Below, in pieces: positions 5,581 through 20,731 of a DNA stretch of 24,096 nt. The notes under the pieces were generated by a model. It was not told the DNA's origin. It worked only from the letters and a program-made list of their open reading frames with translations, and searched no databases. Every line of letters starts with the position of its first letter. The first letter of the stretch is position 1. The DNA is from a virus. The position numbers and the translations under genes were made by a program. The stretch lies in the IMG/VR virus record IMGVR_UViG_3300010396_000098, positions 1 through 24,096 of that record. One strand, 5' to 3'.

Positions 5581-6291
5581 TTGCCGAACTTCTCCCTTAT
5601 CAACGTCAGCCTGTACGTGGGTAGCCTTGCCATTTACCCGTTTATCAACAAGGCTTCTCTCAAGATTTCAGCCGCCGCTCTGGATGCGACCACCTTTCAG
5701 ACCACCCATCAAGTTCGTTTGGGAGGTCTCAAACAGATCGAGTATCAGGAAGACGGCTTTTGGGACTCGGTTCCCGACCTAGCCACATTTAGCATCGTTG
5801 GAACAGCTAACCAAGCGGTCACAGTTTCGCCCGAAGGATTGGAGCTCAAAACTGCCTATCTCTTCCAGGCCGGCGCTTTTACGTATGAGCAATTCGGCCA
5901 GGTCGGAGATGTGGTGCCTTGCTCCATCTCAATGATGGGGACCAACGGAGTCGGTGTGGTTCGAGGACAGATGGCGGCAGTGAATCGCACAGTCTCGGCG
6001 ACAGGACAACTCGGAAGTGTCGTAACCATCACTGGCCCGACGGCCACTCAATATCTGTATGCCACCTTCCACGTTCAGACTGCGGCGACAACCATCACCG
6101 TCCTGTTGGAATCAGCCCCAACCTTCGGTTTTGCTGCTCCAGTCACTCGCGCCACGATTGGTCCGTTGACGACCACAGGCGGGACATTCATGACTCGAGT
6201 GGCTGGTCCGATTACGGATGGCTTCTATCGCTTCAACGTGAGCGCTATCACCGGCACGTTTCTCGTTACAGGCGCCATCGCCGTCCAATAA
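5581..6291 (+). CDS. Major tail (tube) protein, longer paralogue
   Basis: 236 residues from TTG 5581, with AGGAG 6-10 bases upstream. The N-terminal 60 residues (SLKISAAALDATTFQTTHQVRLGGLKQIEYQEDGFWD) align by eye with the next protein (TLKVSAADLETTAFGGTYRSRIGGLKDASLDVEFNQDF). That shared unit is typical of phage tail tube proteins: a beta strand, an 'A-x-x-L-x-x-T' turn and a 'GG-L' strand. The second half has tandem beta strands with VTITGPTATQYLYATFHVQTAATTITVLLESAP, which could be an added Ig-like or surface domain. Probable role: tail tube subunit or a tube-decorating protein. Which of the two tandem proteins forms the tube cannot be decided here. Confidence 0.75.
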   Translation: MPNFSLINVSLYVGSLAIYPFINKASLKISAAALDATTFQTTHQVRLGGLKQIEYQEDGFWDSVPDLATFSIVGTANQAVTVSPEGLELKTAYLFQAGAFTYEQFGQVGDVVPCSISMMGTNGVGVVRGQMAAVNRTVSATGQLGSVVTITGPTATQYLYATFHVQTAATTITVLLESAPTFGFAAPVTRATIGPLTTTGGTFMTRVAGPITDGFYRFNVSAITGTFLVTGAIAVQ

Positions 6292-6311
6292 CTTCAGGAG
6301 GACTCTAGAAC

Positions 6312-6719
6312 TTGGCTAACTTCGCCGGCGTCGACTACAACCTCAAGATCAACACGGTCGACATGTCCTTGATGTGTACGAAGGTGACACTCAAGGTCTC
6401 AGCGGCCGACCTCGAGACGACCGCCTTTGGCGGTACCTATCGCTCGAGGATCGGCGGACTCAAGGACGCCAGTCTGGACGTCGAGTTCAACCAGGACTTC
6501 GCGGCCTCCCAGGTCGACGCTCTGCTCTGGCCCTTGCTGGGCACGGTGGTTGCCTTCGAGCTCAAGCCCACCTCGGGCGCTGCCAGCGCGACCAACCCAC
6601 GCTACACGGGGAGCGTGCTCATCACCGACTACAGTCCTTTGGACGGCTCGGTCGGAGACCTTGCCAAGACGAGCGCGAGCTGGCCGACTTCAGGTTCGGT
6701 GCTGCGCTTTACGACCTAG
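6312..6719 (+). CDS. Major tail (tube) protein, shorter paralogue
   Basis: 135 residues from TTG 6312, preceded by AGGAGG. It reads ANFAGVDYNLKINTVDMSL, then TLKVSAADLETTAFGGTYRSRIGGL, and then VEFNQDFAASQVDALLWPLLGTVVAFELKP with SATNPRYTGSVLITDYSPLDGSVGDLAKTSASWP. That whole layout is the familiar short tail tube protein of many actinobacterial and metagenomic phages. It is related to the gene before it over the first 60 residues. The stop codon is shared, in opposite directions, with the end of a possible minus-strand microprotein gene. Confidence 0.8.
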   Translation: MANFAGVDYNLKINTVDMSLMCTKVTLKVSAADLETTAFGGTYRSRIGGLKDASLDVEFNQDFAASQVDALLWPLLGTVVAFELKPTSGAASATNPRYTGSVLITDYSPLDGSVGDLAKTSASWPTSGSVLRFTT

Positions 6720-12954: not shown

Positions 12955-13160
12955 TCGCTGTCATGGAGGACGAAGAACAGGAAGCAGCACTCTTCAGGAG
13001 CATGGTCGACGAACGCATCCTGCTTCTGGGAAGACTCAAGGCTTACCAGGACACCCTCGACAAGATCCGCTCCCTAGCTGACGTAGCCACCGCCAGACCT
13101 AGAAAGAACGAAGCGCTGATTCAGATCCGCGAGCTGGCAGAGATGGCGCTGGCGCTGTGA
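12951..13160 (+). CDS. Small acidic helical protein
   Basis: 69 residues from GTG 12951, which overlaps the nuclease stop in a GTGA arrangement; ATG 12963 is an alternative. It is almost all helix, with MEDEEQEAALFRSMVDERILLLGRLKAYQDTLDKI likely forming a coiled coil, then basic and acidic stretches. No family recognised. It is followed by a tRNA gene on the other strand. Confidence 0.6.
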   Translation: MIAVMEDEEQEAALFRSMVDERILLLGRLKAYQDTLDKIRSLADVATARPRKNEALIQIRELAEMALAL

Positions 13161-13172
13161 ATGGGGTCGGTG

Positions 13173-13247
13173 GCCCTCCCTGGGACTCGAACCCAGAACG
13201 ATCCGACTCCTCGGGTCGGCGCGTCTAACCAGTTCCGCCAGGAGGGC
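13173..13247 (-). tRNA. tRNA-Leu-like gene, anticodon GAG (atypical)
   Basis: On the minus strand, a 75-base cloverleaf fits well. Acceptor GCCCTCC pairs with GGAGGGC, and the T arm CTGGG-TTCGAGT-CCCAG is perfect. The D arm GCGGAACTGGTTAGACGC matches the one typical of leucine tRNAs. The anticodon stem CCGAC/GTCGG encloses CCGAGGA, giving anticodon GAG with G37. Two points are odd: base 33 is C rather than U, and the variable region is only about 6 bases, whereas leucine tRNAs are class II with a long arm. CCA is not encoded at the 3' end. It may be a decayed or specialised tRNA, or an att-like remnant. Confidence 0.75.
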
Positions 13248-13270
13248 AGCACCGCCCCAAGGAGAGTCTA

Positions 13271-13477
13271 ATGCTCACTCAGGCTGGCGGCGGAACTCTC
13301 TTCCTGCTGGTGGCTATCGCCCTTGTCGTGCTGGTGGCCTTCGCGCTCTTCGAAGCCTGGGCGCTCTACAGCGACCGGAGGCCGATCACCAGCTACGTCA
13401 GGGCGGGGATTGCTCGCTTCCCTCATTGGGCTGCGCTCGTCGCCTTCCTAGCGGGCTTGCTAGGTGGTCATTTTTGA
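13271..13477 (+). CDS. Small membrane protein, holin-like candidate
   Basis: 68 residues, ATG 13271 with AAGGAGAG upstream. Two hydrophobic helices are visible: residues 8-32 (TLFLLVAIALVVLVAFALFEAWALY) and about 50-66 (HWAALVAFLAGLLGGHF), with a basic stretch between them (SDRRPITSYVRAG). Position after the endolysin and topology fit a class II holin-type or antiholin protein, but a better holin candidate lies at 13782. It starts 24 bases after the tRNA gene. Confidence 0.6.
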   Translation: MLTQAGGGTLFLLVAIALVVLVAFALFEAWALYSDRRPITSYVRAGIARFPHWAALVAFLAGLLGGHF

Positions 13478-13781
13478 AGGTGAGAACGCTCGCGTAAGCG
13501 CTCAAACCGAGGTTGACTGGAGGTCGCGGGCACTCTCGGATGACCGGCCCGAGTCGTTGCTACGCCTTGAGGATGCCTAATGGTGGCACCGAGGCTCGGG
13601 AACTACCGGATGCCTTGCCGCGCGGCCTCCACTCAGCCTGGAAAGAAAACCGGCGCTGAGGGCTAATCCCTGAGCGCCGGAAGAGTATTCCCCCGCCAGT
13701 TCTGTGGGGCGAGCGTCCCCGCCTTGGAGCTAGCTAACCGACGAGGGCTAGTGCCGTCAATCGTAATTCATCGGAGGTGAC
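13478..13781 (+). other. Gene-free, hairpin-rich stretch between lysis genes
   Basis: About 300 bases with no convincing gene, unusual in this dense genome. Several stems can be drawn on the plus strand: CGCT/AGCG near 13488-13501, a long-range GGAGG/CCTCC with CGCGG/CCGCG (about 13519-13530 with 13617-13631), a 31-base hairpin at 13650-13680, GGGGCG...CCCC stems at 13691-13722, and CTAGC/GCTAG at 13729-13752. It ends in GGAGGTGA, the ribosome site of the holin gene. A structured noncoding RNA or long 5' leader is possible; no known RNA family was recognised. Confidence 0.35.
13650..13680 (+). terminator. Strong hairpin in the gene-free stretch
   Basis: CCGGCGCT pairs with AGCGCCGG (8 bp). 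A G-G mismatch follows, then AGGG/CCCT (4 bp), closing a 5-base loop CTAAT. No T-run follows (next bases AAGAGTATT), so it is more likely part of an RNA structure than an intrinsic terminator. The structure is read directly; function is unknown. Confidence 0.35.
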
Positions 13782-13958
13782 ATGGTCACAAAGATAGACA
13801 AGGCGATCGTTGCGTTCATCCTCGCTGCAGCTGGCGTGTTCGGTACAGGCCAGATCGCAGATAACAACCTGACCACGACGCTGATCTCGGCGGCAGTGGT
13901 GGGCCTGGTAGCTGCTCTCGGAGTCTGGGCGGCGCCCAACAAACCGGCCAACCCCTGA
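13782..13958 (+). CDS. Holin (putative)
   Basis: 58 residues, ATG 13782 with a strong GGAGGTGA. Two hydrophobic segments: about residues 8-24 (AIVAFILAAAGVFGTGQ) and 34-52 (LISAAVVGLVAALGVWAAP), separated by a short polar loop (IADNNLTTT), with the ending APNKPANP. This 'KAIVAF..AAAG..GT ... GVWAAPN' outline is the usual one of small actinophage holins encoded near the endolysin. The protein would form membrane lesions that release the GH25 endolysin. Its stop overlaps the next ATG by 1 base. Confidence 0.7.
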   Translation: MVTKIDKAIVAFILAAAGVFGTGQIADNNLTTTLISAAVVGLVAALGVWAAPNKPANP

Positions 13959-14065
13959 TGAAGTACGCCATCGAGTTCGGCGTTCTCTTCATCTTCATTC
14001 TTGGCCTGTGGGTCTGGCAGAAGTTGACGAGGGTGGAGAGATACGTGGAAACACATACGAGGTAA
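13958..14065 (+). CDS. 35-residue single-helix membrane protein
   Basis: ATG 13958 overlaps the holin stop (TGATG). The N-terminal 21 residues form a hydrophobic helix (YAIEFGVLFIFILGLWVWQK), followed by a basic and polar tail (LTRVERYVETHTR). Small one-helix proteins coupled to holin genes can be holin partners, antiholins or spanin-like parts. The family is not recognised. Coupling and clean frame make it likely real. Confidence 0.55.
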   Translation: MKYAIEFGVLFIFILGLWVWQKLTRVERYVETHTR

Positions 14066-14074
14066 CACAAACCA

Positions 14075-16968: not shown

Positions 16969-17661
16969 GTGGCGCGTATCCTTCCTGCCTCACAAGCTCC
17001 GCCCCCCACTCCCCAGACAGACTTTGGGGACAAGGTAAAAGCCCACGTCCGCTACTTCACCAGCTCAGGAGAGCAGGTTCCGGGTGTCACCACCATCCTC
17101 TCTGTGCTCAACAAGCCGGCGCTGGTGTCGTGGGCCAACCGCATGGGCCTACAGGGAATTGATACCAAGCGCTACGTTGACGAGGCCGCCTCAGTAGGCA
17201 TCCTCGCCCACGCCCTGATCATGGAGTCGCTGGGCGGCAAGTCGGTCGCCCATGGCGACTTCACGGCCGATCAGCTGACGCGCGCCCAACATGGCGTTAA
17301 CACCTTCAACGCCTGGAAAAAGAACCAGGACCTCGAACCCAAGCTCCTCGAGCAGCCGTTGGTCTCCGACCAGCACCGCTACGGCGGCACCATCGACATG
17401 CTGGCGATTCTCAACGGCGACCCGACCCTGATCGACCTCAAGACCTCGAGCGGAATCTACGAGGAGCACGTCTTCCAGGTCGGCGCCTACTGGAGGCTGC
17501 TCGCCGAGGCCGGCCAGGAGATCAAGGGGGCTCGCATCCTGCGCATCGGGCGCTCCGAGGGCGAAGGTATGGACGAGCGGGTGTTGAGCGGTACCCAGGT
17601 GCTCAACGCCTGGAGGGTGTTCGAGCACTGCTTGGAGATCTACAGGTTGAAGAAGCGTTAG
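16969..17661 (+). CDS. PD-(D/E)XK nuclease, RecB/Cas4-like exonuclease
   Basis: 230 residues from GTG 16969, two bases after the SSB-like stop. The opening VRYFTSSGEQVPGVTTILSVLNKPALVSWA is the usual start of phage RecB-like nucleases. RYGGTIDMLAILNG (D near residue 144) and LIDLKTSSGIYEEHVFQVGAYWRLL (D and K near 155-157, then the QxxxY motif) are the catalytic core. The enzyme would resect DNA ends and feed recombination together with the SSB-like protein. There are no cysteine clusters as in Cas4. Confidence 0.85.
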   Translation: MARILPASQAPPPTPQTDFGDKVKAHVRYFTSSGEQVPGVTTILSVLNKPALVSWANRMGLQGIDTKRYVDEAASVGILAHALIMESLGGKSVAHGDFTADQLTRAQHGVNTFNAWKKNQDLEPKLLEQPLVSDQHRYGGTIDMLAILNGDPTLIDLKTSSGIYEEHVFQVGAYWRLLAEAGQEIKGARILRIGRSEGEGMDERVLSGTQVLNAWRVFEHCLEIYRLKKR

Positions 17662-19634
17662 TGGTGTCCCTCCTCGATACAGCCCTTACCTACACCGAGG
17701 CGGGCTGGCCCATCTTTCCGCTCGAGCCCCATGGCAAGCAGCCCTTGGGCAAGCTGGCACCACACGGATTAAAGGACGCGACCCTCGAAGAGGAGATCGT
17801 CCGCCGCTGGTGGAAGGCTGAACCCCAGGCCAACATCGCCGTTCCGACCGGGATCGTGTTCGACGTCGGAGATATCGATAGCGCTGAGGCTCTCGGCCGC
17901 TTTCAGGAGCTCTGTCACGAAAATGGCACTGATCCCGCGACCTTCCCGCGAGCCAAGACCGGCCGCGGTGGCCGGCACATCTTCGTCACCCCAACCGGGG
18001 TCGGTAATAAGGTCGACGTCATCCCGGGTATGGACTGGCGAGGCAAGGGCGGATACGTGGTTGTCCCTGACTCAGTGCATCCCTCGGGTACCACCTACGA
18101 GTGGATCCTGAGGATTACCGGCGAGCCTCCACCGTGCCCGCCATGGCTTCTGGAGCTGATCACCAAGCCGGTGCTCTTGAAGCCAGCCTTGGTTCCTACG
18201 AAGGCGCCTGAGGCTTACGTGCGCGCGGCTATGGAGGCTGAGTTGGCAGCCCTACGCTCAGCCTCAACAGGCACCCGTAATGACACCCTCAACCGAGCTG
18301 CCTACGCCCTCGGCCAAATGGTTGGCGCCGACTGGATTCGCGCCGGCCAGGCAGGGGCTGAGCTCCGCGCCGCCGCCTACGCGACCGGACTCGAGGAGCC
18401 CGAGGTTGAGCGGACCATCCGCTCTGGTCTGGAGGATGGCATGGCTCATCCTCGCCAGGCGCCGGCTGAGGGTTGGGGGAACGCTGGCGTAATACGCCAG
18501 GGCGCGCAGAGCGAGCGATCAGGGCTTTTGGGATCACCTCCTTTGGGCTCCGCGATGACCTCTGCGCGTCCTGTCGTCTACACGGCAGAACAACTCGAGC
18601 ACAAGGAGATCGTCGAACCGCGAGCGGTCATCCCTGGCGTCGTCTATGTCGGCCTGAACATGCTCGCCGGCAAGGGCAAGCTCGGAAAGAGCTGGCTCGC
18701 CCTCGCCATGGGGTTAGGAGTGGCCAGTGGTGGTGAGATCCTCAACCAGCAGGTACCGGCTGCCGAGGTTCTCTACCTTGCGCTCGAGGATACCGAGCGA
18801 CGTCTCAAGGTGCGAATCGCCAAGCTCTGGCCGAAGAAATGGCCGGCCACTCTCCACATCTCGCATCAGTGGCTCAAGCTCGACGAGGGCGGCATCCAGG
18901 CCATTGAGGAGTGGTTGGGAGAGCATCCAACCTGCTCGCTGGTCATCATCGATGTCTGGAAGCGGCTGCGCCACAAGCGGCAAAAGAACGCCAGCCTCTA
19001 TGACGAGGACTACGAGCACTTGGTTCCGCTACAGGCCATTGCCCAGCGCTACGAGGTGGGGATCCTGGTCGTTCACCACACCCGCAAGGCGGCGGCCGAG
19101 GACGTTTTCGACGAGATTTCAGGCTCGGGCGGAGTGCTGGCTGCGCTCGACTCTTGCATCATCCTGCATCGCGCCAGGAGCGAGGCCGACGGCGAGATTT
19201 GGGTCACCGGGAGGGATCTCGAGGAGGCCCATCTAGCCCTCAAATTCGAGGATGGACACTGGTCGTTGCTGGGTTCAGCGCGAGAAGTTGCTCGGTCCAA
19301 GGAGCGCCGGGAAATCCTGGAAGCGATTACCGACGCGGGCAAAATGATTACCGTCGCAGAACTGGCGGTAATCATTGGTAAGCCTCGGAACACCGTCAAC
19401 CAACTCGTTTTCAAAATGCTGACGGCAGGCGAGCTTCGCCGTTCGAACTCAACCTATGGCCTTCCAGTAATCACTAACGAAGGTAAAGGTAGTAATAGTG
19501 GTAATCACGGTAATCAAGGACGATTACTGATTACCGGTACACGTAAGGAAGGCTGCCCGGCCTGTGGGAAGCCGGCCTATTCCCTCCGCGGCAACCAGAA
19601 GCGCTGCCATGCCTGCGGGGAGCTCTATGGCTAA
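17661..19634 (+). CDS. Bifunctional primase-polymerase / RepA-like helicase
   Basis: 657 residues from GTG 17661, overlapping the previous stop by 1 base. Residues 1-175 are an archaeo-eukaryotic primase domain: VFDVGDIDSAE (metal-binding DxD near 71-73), GRGGRHIFV (near 101-109) and DWRGKGGYVVVPDSVHPSG. A helical region follows (GLEEPEVERTIRSGLEDGM). The helicase part has a Walker A AGKGKLGKSW near 335-345, Walker B LVIIDVW near 427 and VHHTRK near 471, like RepA/RecA-fold helicases. Residues 555-610 look like a winged helix (VAELAVIIGKPRNTVNQLVFKML). The last 25 residues hold CPAC and CHAC, a zinc ribbon. It probably starts phage DNA replication; iterons lie in its 3' end. Confidence 0.9.
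   Translation: MVSLLDTALTYTEAGWPIFPLEPHGKQPLGKLAPHGLKDATLEEEIVRRWWKAEPQANIAVPTGIVFDVGDIDSAEALGRFQELCHENGTDPATFPRAKTGRGGRHIFVTPTGVGNKVDVIPGMDWRGKGGYVVVPDSVHPSGTTYEWILRITGEPPPCPPWLLELITKPVLLKPALVPTKAPEAYVRAAMEAELAALRSASTGTRNDTLNRAAYALGQMVGADWIRAGQAGAELRAAAYATGLEEPEVERTIRSGLEDGMAHPRQAPAEGWGNAGVIRQGAQSERSGLLGSPPLGSAMTSARPVVYTAEQLEHKEIVEPRAVIPGVVYVGLNMLAGKGKLGKSWLALAMGLGVASGGEILNQQVPAAEVLYLALEDTERRLKVRIAKLWPKKWPATLHISHQWLKLDEGGIQAIEEWLGEHPTCSLVIIDVWKRLRHKRQKNASLYDEDYEHLVPLQAIAQRYEVGILVVHHTRKAAAEDVFDEISGSGGVLAALDSCIILHRARSEADGEIWVTGRDLEEAHLALKFEDGHWSLLGSAREVARSKERREILEAITDAGKMITVAELAVIIGKPRNTVNQLVFKMLTAGELRRSNSTYGLPVITNEGKGSNSGNHGNQGRLLITGTRKEGCPACGKPAYSLRGNQKRCHACGELYG
19325..19535 (+). repeat. 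Iteron-like GGTAATCA cluster, candidate replication origin
   Basis: Eight copies of GGTAATCA or its complement TGATTACC, each with at most one mismatch, fall within 211 bases inside the 3' part of the primase-helicase gene: 19325-19331 (7 of 8, minus), 19345-19352 (minus), 19367-19374 (plus), 19466-19473 (AGTAATCA, plus), 19500-19507 and 19509-19516 (plus), 19521-19528 (CGATTACT, minus) and 19528-19535 (minus). This part is less G+C-rich than its surroundings. Iterons inside or next to an initiator gene are a common origin design; the origin role is inferred. Confidence 0.6.
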
Positions 19635-19947
19635 GAGCTGGAAGGCGAGTGAGCTCGCGGTGGCAAAGCTCCTGGGCGGTGAGCGTGTCCCCATCAACGG
19701 CCGGGTTCGAGGTTCGGCGCCTGACGTCCTCCACGACTGGCTCGCCATCGAGGTCAAGTCCTTGAAGAACCTGCCGGCTCGAATGGTCGACGCCATGGAT
19801 CAGGCCGAGAAATCAGCTGCTTGGTCCAAGCGCAAGGAGGGCAAGGACAAGTTGCCGATCGCGATCATCCACCACGACCACCAGGACCATCACCGAGATT
19901 TGCTTGTCATGCGCCTCGGCGATTTCATGGAGCACTTTGGAACATGA
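19627..19947 (+). CDS. Holliday junction resolvase-like nuclease
   Basis: 106 residues from ATG 19627, overlapping the primase stop by 8 bases. SWKASELAVAKLLGGERVPINGR (with an early glutamate), GSAPDVLHDWLAIEVKS (D near residue 32 and E-x-K near 41-43) and a long helix with MDQAEKSAAW are the core of archaeal-Hjc/VRR-like resolvases of the PD-(D/E)XK group. It would cut branched intermediates made by replication or recombination. The final part is histidine rich (IIHHDHQDHHRDLLVMRLGDF). Family good; exact substrate inferred. Confidence 0.75.
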   Translation: MAKSWKASELAVAKLLGGERVPINGRVRGSAPDVLHDWLAIEVKSLKNLPARMVDAMDQAEKSAAWSKRKEGKDKLPIAIIHHDHQDHHRDLLVMRLGDFMEHFGT

Positions 19948-20009
19948 ACCACGGACGCACCAAACCACGCGGCCAAACTGTCGGCGCCATGGAAAAGGCT
20001 TTTTCATGA
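19944..20009 (+). CDS. 21-residue coupled mini-ORF
   Basis: ATG 19944 overlaps the resolvase stop (ATGA) and its own TGA overlaps ATG 20006 of the DNA methyltransferase (ATGA). The peptide MNHGRTKPRGQTVGAMEKAFS is basic. The two ATGA couplings suggest it carries ribosomes from one gene to the next, whether or not the peptide has a function. Low confidence as a functional protein. Confidence 0.35.
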   Translation: MNHGRTKPRGQTVGAMEKAFS

Positions 20010-20731
20010 GCAAAGCGCAGCGCTTTCTGGCGCTTAAGCGCAGCGACCTGGTGGCGGAGAGGCCGCTGCAGCTGGGGCTGATAGAGGGGCACGACCGGCG
20101 CGTCGGCCGGGTCCCGGGCTCGGTCTTCTACGGCCACCTGAACGCGGACCTGATCGCCGAAGTCGCCCCGCTCTATCTCTCCGGATCCGTGCTGGACGTG
20201 ACCTACGGCAAGGGCGCGTGGTGGCGACGGTTCCGGCCGGACCCATTCGCGTCGCACGACATTCGACTCGATGGCGTCGACTTCCGGGCGCTGCCCGAGG
20301 CGGACCACTCATGGGACGCCGTGTGCTTCGATCCGCCCTACGTCCCCCGACAAGGGCGCTGGCACGAGCAGGAACGGCGCCGGCGCCGCGAGCGAGCCTA
20401 CAGGGACAACTACGGCCTCCAGATCAGCCGCGGCAACGTAGAGCTCCAGGAGCTCCTGTTTGCCGGCCTCGCGGAGTGCGCGCGTGTCGCTCGCCGATGG
20501 GTGCTCGTCAAGTGCACGGATTTCGTCAACGGCCGGCGATTCTGGGTGATGCACGAAACCCTGCTCGCCGAGGCCCGTCGCCTCGGGCTCGTCTGCCACG
20601 ACCTGATCATTCACGCCTCGGGCCCCGGCCCGGGCGGCCAACAGATTGTGCGGCCGCTCCGCGCGCGCCGAGCTCACAGCTATCTGCTCGTGTTTTCCGT
20701 GCCCCGGATCCGGAGCGCGCGCAGTGCCTAA
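20006..20731 (+). CDS. DNA methyltransferase (DPPY type)
   Basis: 241 residues from ATG 20006. The frame is open further upstream, but this ATG is coupled and has the better context. Motif I appears as SVLDVTYGKGAWW (near 60-72), and the catalytic motif IV is FDPPYVP (DPPY near 109-112). RNVEL-type helices and the motif-like VLVKCTDFVNGRRFW follow. DPPY is found in N6-adenine and N4-cytosine DNA methyltransferases. The enzyme may protect phage DNA from host restriction or act as an orphan regulator. The gene is visibly richer in G+C than its neighbours, suggesting a separate origin. No partner restriction enzyme is seen. Confidence 0.8.
   Translation: MSKAQRFLALKRSDLVAERPLQLGLIEGHDRRVGRVPGSVFYGHLNADLIAEVAPLYLSGSVLDVTYGKGAWWRRFRPDPFASHDIRLDGVDFRALPEADHSWDAVCFDPPYVPRQGRWHEQERRRRRERAYRDNYGLQISRGNVELQELLFAGLAECARVARRWVLVKCTDFVNGRRFWVMHETLLAEARRLGLVCHDLIIHASGPGPGGQQIVRPLRARRAHSYLLVFSVPRIRSARSA
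20012..20041 (+). repeat. Two palindromes at the start of the DNA methyltransferase gene
   Basis: AAAGCGC A GCGCTTT (20012-20026) and the perfect palindrome GCGCTTAAGCGC (20030-20041) lie within the first 36 bases of the coding region. They could form mRNA hairpins over the start or be binding sites for self-regulation. The second shares its core with the inverted repeat at 16432-16446. Confidence 0.4.

Follow-up and report, generated by a model that had tools for sequence, protein, structure and literature searches.

Read from sequence, eight short repeats clustered near the 3′ end of a viral primase-helicase gene probably constitute a replication origin, or at minimum the portion of it that the initiator binds, embedded in the initiator's own coding sequence. 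We favour this interpretation because the cluster lies beyond all shuffled controls and at the AT-rich extreme of the record, because the gene combines a Prim-Pol domain, an AAA_25 domain and a winged helix, and because clusters recur at the 3′ end of related genes across lineages, the repeats match the recognition helix and plasmid pATHE01 displays the same design. An origin or initiator-binding site within coding sequence had been proposed in an earlier note on this DNA, and the proposal gains support from the 3′-end clusters in relatives together with the co-variation of helix and repeat. With less confidence, but still on balance, we also favour a wider view in which phages, small elements and plasmids include a broad and undescribed class of one-polypeptide replicons that carry their own origin in the 3′ end of the gene or directly behind it, with helix 3 specifying the 9-bp iteron. 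The members of this class would consist of a Prim-Pol or other N-terminus, a RepA-type AAA_25 ring and a winged helix.

The primase-helicase gene and its product

The window, meaning the whole stretch of DNA analysed, is one entire virus record of 24,096 bp and a linear contig, possibly incomplete. It encodes virion and lysis functions (head-tail adaptor, tail terminator, major tail, endolysin). The primase-helicase gene on the plus strand (17661..19634) encodes 657 aa with a Prim-Pol domain, an AAA_25 helicase, a winged helix, a disordered linker and a C-terminal Zn ribbon. It is flanked by genes for a Cas4-like exonuclease (16969-17661), for a Holliday-junction-resolvase-like protein (from 19627) and for a DNA methyltransferase (19904-20731), and so belongs to a replication/recombination block.

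The Prim-Pol domain (residues 8-162; 17682..18146, plus strand) matches Pfam PF09250 with E 4e-35 and the AAA_25 RecA-like helicase domain (residues 311-478; 18591..19094, plus strand) matches PF13481 with E 2e-21; the AAA_25 part also has a weak sequence match to RSF1010 RepA (1g8y, E 0.007). The winged-helix DNA-binding domain (approximately residues 540-600; 19278..19460, plus strand) was identified in an AlphaFold2 model and by Pfam HTH_24 above the cut-off. A single-sequence structure of the C-terminus reached a pLDDT of 48, and a model based on a 40-row alignment (A5) of fetched relatives was used in its place. Here the winged helix consists of helices 24-43, 49-56 and 60-73 and wing strands 77-79 and 82-84, with a pLDDT of about 80-93 over the block, while the linker is modelled at low confidence. 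The third helix is the predicted recognition helix, RNTVNQLVFKMLTA (residues 576-589; 19386..19427, plus strand), and a Zn-ribbon-like CxxC...CxxC motif (CPACGKPAYSLRGNQKRCHACG; 19554..19619, plus strand) is recognisable in the C-terminal sequence. No closer winged-helix family is claimed, since Foldseek returned generic winged helices only (Z-alpha, IclR, SelB) and no match below E 0.001.

Organization of the repeat cluster

The cluster, extending over 19324-19535, had been described as eight copies of GGTAATCA or its complement with at most one mismatch. This count stood for seven copies, five of them exact and two, at 19324 (minus) and 19466 (plus), with one mismatch; it failed for the remaining copy at 19521 (AGTAATCG), which has two. 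All five exact copies in the 24,096-bp record fall within 19345-19535, in agreement with the earlier remark that the motif was not noticed elsewhere, and a control with the reversed GGTAATCA pattern gave 0 matches in the whole record. As 9-mers the sites read CGGTAATC[A/G] with minor variants, and their consensus is CGGTAATCA.

Along the cluster the sites are iteron 1 (CGGTAATCG; 19324..19332, minus), iteron 2 (CGGTAATCA; 19345..19353, minus), iteron 3 (CGGTAATCA; 19366..19374, plus), iteron 4 (CAGTAATCA, one mismatch; 19465..19473, plus), iteron 5 (TGGTAATCA; 19499..19507, plus), iteron 6 (CGGTAATCA, 9 bp past iteron 5; 19508..19516, plus), iteron 7 (CAGTAATCG, the weakest, with two mismatches to GGTAATCA; 19521..19529, minus) and iteron 8 (CGGTAATCA; 19528..19536, minus). 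Both orientations are thus represented, as had been noted, by four sites each in the order − − + + + + − −, and iterons 2 and 3 make up a perfect inverted repeat of 11 bp. Three of the eight iterons are situated in DNA encoding the winged helix and the others in DNA encoding the linker. The earlier description of the spot as less G+C-rich understated the case: the 60-mer at 19468..19527, which overlaps iterons 4-7 and is a candidate unwinding element, has the lowest G+C of the record (36.7% versus 62% for the gene; rank 1 of 8012 windows). No DnaA box was found in the record.

Comparison with a shuffled control, which the earlier note had put forward as a check, came out in favour of the cluster. 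With at most one mismatch allowed, GGTAATCA occurs at 21 sites in the whole record where 8.3 are expected, a number reached by none of 100 shuffles; 14 of the 21 are scattered outside the cluster. In an unbiased scan of all 8-mers the top cluster score was 13 and the runner-up in the record scored 8, while 100 dinucleotide-shuffled versions of the full record yielded no 8-mer cluster scoring above 9.

Repeats at the 3′ end of related helicase genes

A single-protein scan of viral contigs with P0001 gave no relatives, and relatives were gathered with AAA_25-domain profiles from viral contigs and bacterial genomes. For each locus the strongest 8-mer cluster within 250 bp was placed relative to the helicase gene, counting sites on either strand with up to one mismatch. 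Proteins clustered at 60% identity were counted as lineages and the 3′-end zone was set to −350..+250 of the gene end. The window locus, whose gene product has an AAA_25 domain and a winged helix, has its iteron cluster in this zone. In the first set of viral lineages, window included, the strongest cluster fell in this zone in 48 of 68 (5.8 expected), compared with 3 of 68 for the mirror stretch at the 5′ end; for lineages from bacterial genomes the figure was 7 of 12 (1.0 expected). A second, non-overlapping set, without any member at least 60% identical to the first, gave 21 of 32 (2.6 expected) and 1 at the 5′ end. In all, 69 of 100 independent viral lineages, where 8.4 are expected, have their strongest cluster at the gene's 3′ end, either within it or a short way beyond. 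About 30% of lineages are without a cluster close to the gene end when scanned in this way, among them L135 and L136, the closest relatives by ATPase identity.

The repeat sequence varies by lineage. Clusters of the first set are of mixed orientation in 55 of 56 cases, and their orientation switches 117 times against 205 expected, which indicates that the sites are arranged in blocks; in 48 of the 56 the G+C content is below that of the own locus. Among 77 clusters, 26 are wholly inside the gene, 17 run across its end and 34 are downstream. The spacing between neighbours has a sharp 9-bp peak in all cluster classes, coding and non-coding, and in the non-coding clusters codons cannot be its source.

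Circular plasmid pATHE01 of Caldicellulosiruptor bescii (8,291 bp; L493) encodes a protein of 718 aa in which Pfam recognises Prim-Pol, AAA_25 and a winged helix and which has a CxC...CxxC stretch (Zn ribbon) at the C-terminus. Beneath its linker sequence, SIHSIHSIHSIH..., the DNA contains 11 TTCACTCT-type sites, 7 in one orientation and 4 in the other, at L493:1738-1910 in the coding DNA for SIHSIHSIHS. This cluster is the strongest of the plasmid and is located within its sole recognisable replication gene (ATHE_RS14020). A C. bescii shuttle-vector paper concerns the smaller plasmid pBAS2 and provides no experimental origin for pATHE01, which offers a convenient test system. In Rhizobium phage 16-3 (L132:5112-5475) the space behind the DNA polymerase/primase gene p101 is filled, from the 3′ end of that gene onward, with at least 11 copies of GCGTGACA on both strands; they probably mark an origin that is unannotated in this well-studied phage. 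In Caudoviricetes sp. vir555 (host Methanomicrobiales) approximately 7 direct CAGTTGAA-type repeats were seen near the middle of a Prim-Pol gene annotated as DNA primase (L130:4799-4912), possibly a similar intragenic cluster.

Recognition helix and repeat change together

If the protein's own winged helix binds the repeats, repeat and recognition helix should change together, and this expectation was tested. Across 41 lineages, similarity in helix 3 predicts similarity of the repeat profile (rho 0.151, p 0.0005), also in a partial test on the remaining winged helix and the ATPase (rho 0.154, p 0.0005), neither of which predicts repeat similarity. A sliding scan with 12-residue windows over the domain gave a single peak at PRNTVNQLVFKM..GEL, with rho up to 0.207 and p 0.0002, the permutation floor, and nothing ahead of it. 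The repeat-predicting signal is confined to helix 3, and a Mantel test over the whole length of the winged helix was weak (p 0.03; partial p 0.06). These Mantel effects are small (rho 0.15-0.2) and are corrected for phylogeny by the ATPase control alone.

A held-out set was used because the 12-residue helix columns had been inspected in a table before the formal test. In this set the nearest helix predicts the repeat above chance (p 0.0026), the plain rank correlation over 12 usable lineages gave p 0.06, and non-helix columns also reach p 0.037. With both sets combined (n=61) the helix gave rho 0.164 and p 0.0002 and the rest of the domain p 0.12.

Individual pairs illustrate this correspondence. 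The window combines helix PRNTVNQLVFKM with repeat CGGTAATCA, and L182, whose ATPase similarity to the window is just 0.33, combines PRNNVKQLLFKM with CGGTTATCG; its helix is the nearest to that of the window among repeat-bearing loci, and helices as well as repeats are near-identical. Held-out L445 (LRNNVKQLLFKM) shares the helix of L182 and also its CGATAACCG repeat. Helix VRQLLFKM goes with repeat GTTATCG in L279 and L281, and helix VRYLL with GCTAAC in L297, L142 and L179, the last being otherwise remote (0.08-0.18 for the rest of the domain, 0.35 for the ATPase). L166 and L161 have the repeat CTTGAAGG. The sites are thus likely to be read by the primase-helicase through its own winged helix, and if so, pairs of recognition helix and 9-bp repeat would be a start toward a specificity code for this domain.

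Origin interpretation and alternatives

Of the two findings that, by the earlier note, would undo its proposal, equal frequency of the motif elsewhere is not seen for exact copies; the other is an explanation by the protein repeat alone. Two copies do encode GNHGNQ, and long GGTAATCA runs arise from Gly-Asn repeats in many viral contigs, so that a low-complexity Asn/Gly linker could be suspected of producing the motif through protein-level repetition or codon bias. The cluster is not a protein repeat, because its sites cover codon phases 0, 1 and 2 and both strands in four phase/strand combinations and encode eight differing peptides (AIT, MIT, AVII, PVIT, GNH, GNQ, RLL and LIT). Synonymous-codon shuffling with the protein kept (n=2000) gave a best 8-mer cluster of at most 4 versus 5 observed, and excludes this explanation too, while the 34 of 77 family clusters downstream of the gene are in none of its reading frames. 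The Gly-Asn runs, used here as a control only, are always of one orientation: a search of viral contigs with the pattern GGTAATCANGGTAATCA gave 120 stretches, all single-orientation runs and none with the helicase. For the window cluster a protein-level repeat or codon bias is therefore refuted, and we attach practically no weight to it. The same holds for chance or an assembly artefact, in favour of which nothing was found; it is refuted by every shuffle test and by the recurrence of the cluster in relatives, and hardly deserves credence. The viral contigs L006-L125 (e.g. L029 and L058) contain up to about 100 GGTAATCA copies in one orientation, apparently coding for Gly-Asn repeats, and runs of this kind can pass for iterons when motifs are simply counted.

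Two other functions at the DNA level deserve consideration. The cluster could be an operator through which the primase-helicase or another phage repressor controls transcription through or past the gene, with replication beginning elsewhere; IclR/MarR-like winged helices are also typical of repressors, and binding within a transcribed gene would obstruct transcription into the resolvase and methyltransferase genes that follow. We regard this as unlikely given that the sites are at the 3′ end of the helicase gene and not at promoters, that 8-16 of them are spread in blocks across 200 bp coinciding with the AT-rich minimum, and that in the small plasmid pATHE01 the strongest cluster is inside the only gene with a recognisable replication function. 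A packaging (pac/cos) start, a recombination site or a partition site is very improbable: iteron-like clusters do act as centromeres and pac sites as well, but here the cluster tracks a replication helicase gene over phages, genome contigs and a plasmid, and the repeat co-varies with the helicase's own recognition helix. The origin interpretation is weakened in turn by the absence of a DnaA box, by the linear and possibly incomplete contig, by the lineages without a cluster, by the small Mantel effects and by the GC skew. The last had been suggested as a check and went against the proposal, since the cumulative skew of the record turns near 13.5 kb and has no turn at the 19.4 kb cluster.

If the cluster is an origin, one may envisage that several subunits use their winged helices to bind the 9-bp repeats (consensus CGGTAATCA), which are arranged in oppositely oriented blocks, and that iteron binding would bend and melt the overlapping AT-rich 60-mer. 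The RecA-like domains would assemble as hexameric rings of the RepA type on the exposed strands, where the Prim-Pol domain would lay the first primers. Autoregulation may be an added effect and is compatible with an origin role. Were this true, the origins of many uncharacterised phages, small elements and plasmids could be located from sequence alone, where a recognisable helicase gene has its 3′ end, and a single protein that unites the helicase and primase with origin recognition would make origin firing reconstitutable with very few components. Should the wider replicon class hold, origin and reader would travel as one cassette and origins would be predictable from protein sequence.

Comparison with known systems

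The lambda origin is inside gene O. In phage SPP1 the initiator sites of oriL are within the initiator gene 38 (PMC6316719), and as summarised in PMC8965321 the same arrangement applies to TP901-1 ORF13 and Tuc2009 Rep2009. In these phages the gene of the initiator contains the repeats that the protein recognises, accompanied by an AT-rich unwinding element; the window likewise has clustered repeats inside a replication-initiator gene and its 60-mer minimum (19468-19527) at the repeats. They differ in that a dedicated origin-binding initiator recruits a separate helicase (loader), whereas in the window primase, helicase and winged helix are united in one Prim-Pol/AAA_25 polypeptide.

In the pri-rep-ori modules of PICI/SaPI the origin is directly 3′ of the replication gene and comprises iteron sets with an AT-rich region, pri and rep are sometimes fused, and the iterons are lineage-specific (PMC6092414). 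The helicase family described here resembles them in its candidate origin at the 3′ end of the replication gene, in AT-rich DNA and with lineage-specific iterons. However, the iterons of the window are intragenic and overlap the AT-rich stretch, while PICI iterons flank it, and the window represents a phage with tail and lysis genes rather than a PICI, a satellite without virion genes. If our reading is true, phages and plasmids whose initiator is of another kind would also have the rep-ori cassette layout, hitherto described as unique to PICI.

ORF904 of pRN1 combines Prim-Pol, helicase and a C-terminal winged helix, and the origin is just downstream of its gene (PMC4234260). The union of these domains in one protein is shared with the window, but pRN1 has an SF3 helicase and a 100-nt stem-loop, whereas the helicase of the window is of the AAA_25 type and the element identified there an iteron cluster. 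RSF1010 replicates with RepA, RepB′ and RepC and an oriV with iterons, which are bound by RepC (PMC4234260). Its RepA provides the structural archetype of AAA_25 hexameric helicases, and its origin, like the window cluster, contains iterons; in contrast to the window it employs three separate proteins, and its iterons are bound by RepC and not by the helicase. In the literature searched, which included few subscription papers, no account was found of 3′-end iterons as a trait general to AAA_25 helicases, or of a helix-repeat correspondence. The principle is known from lambda O, SPP1 oriL and PICI rep-ori, but its breadth and the matching of helix and repeat appear new.

Other features of the window

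Between 13000 and 14000 the cumulative GC skew changes from falling to rising, in a region with little plus-strand coding (12955-14074), and the turn near 13.5 kb is a candidate for either a module change or a second replication feature. A possible tandem duplication is seen at 5581-6719, where each of two neighbouring genes has a match to a family of major tail proteins (phrog_9522 and phrog_4574) and the second gene matches the first one's family as well. A 477-aa protein encoded at 726-2159 has glycosyltransferase-like matches to phrog_34859 in its N-terminal half and to phrog_14945 in its C-terminal half, and is followed by a SAM-dependent methyltransferase (2152-2652).
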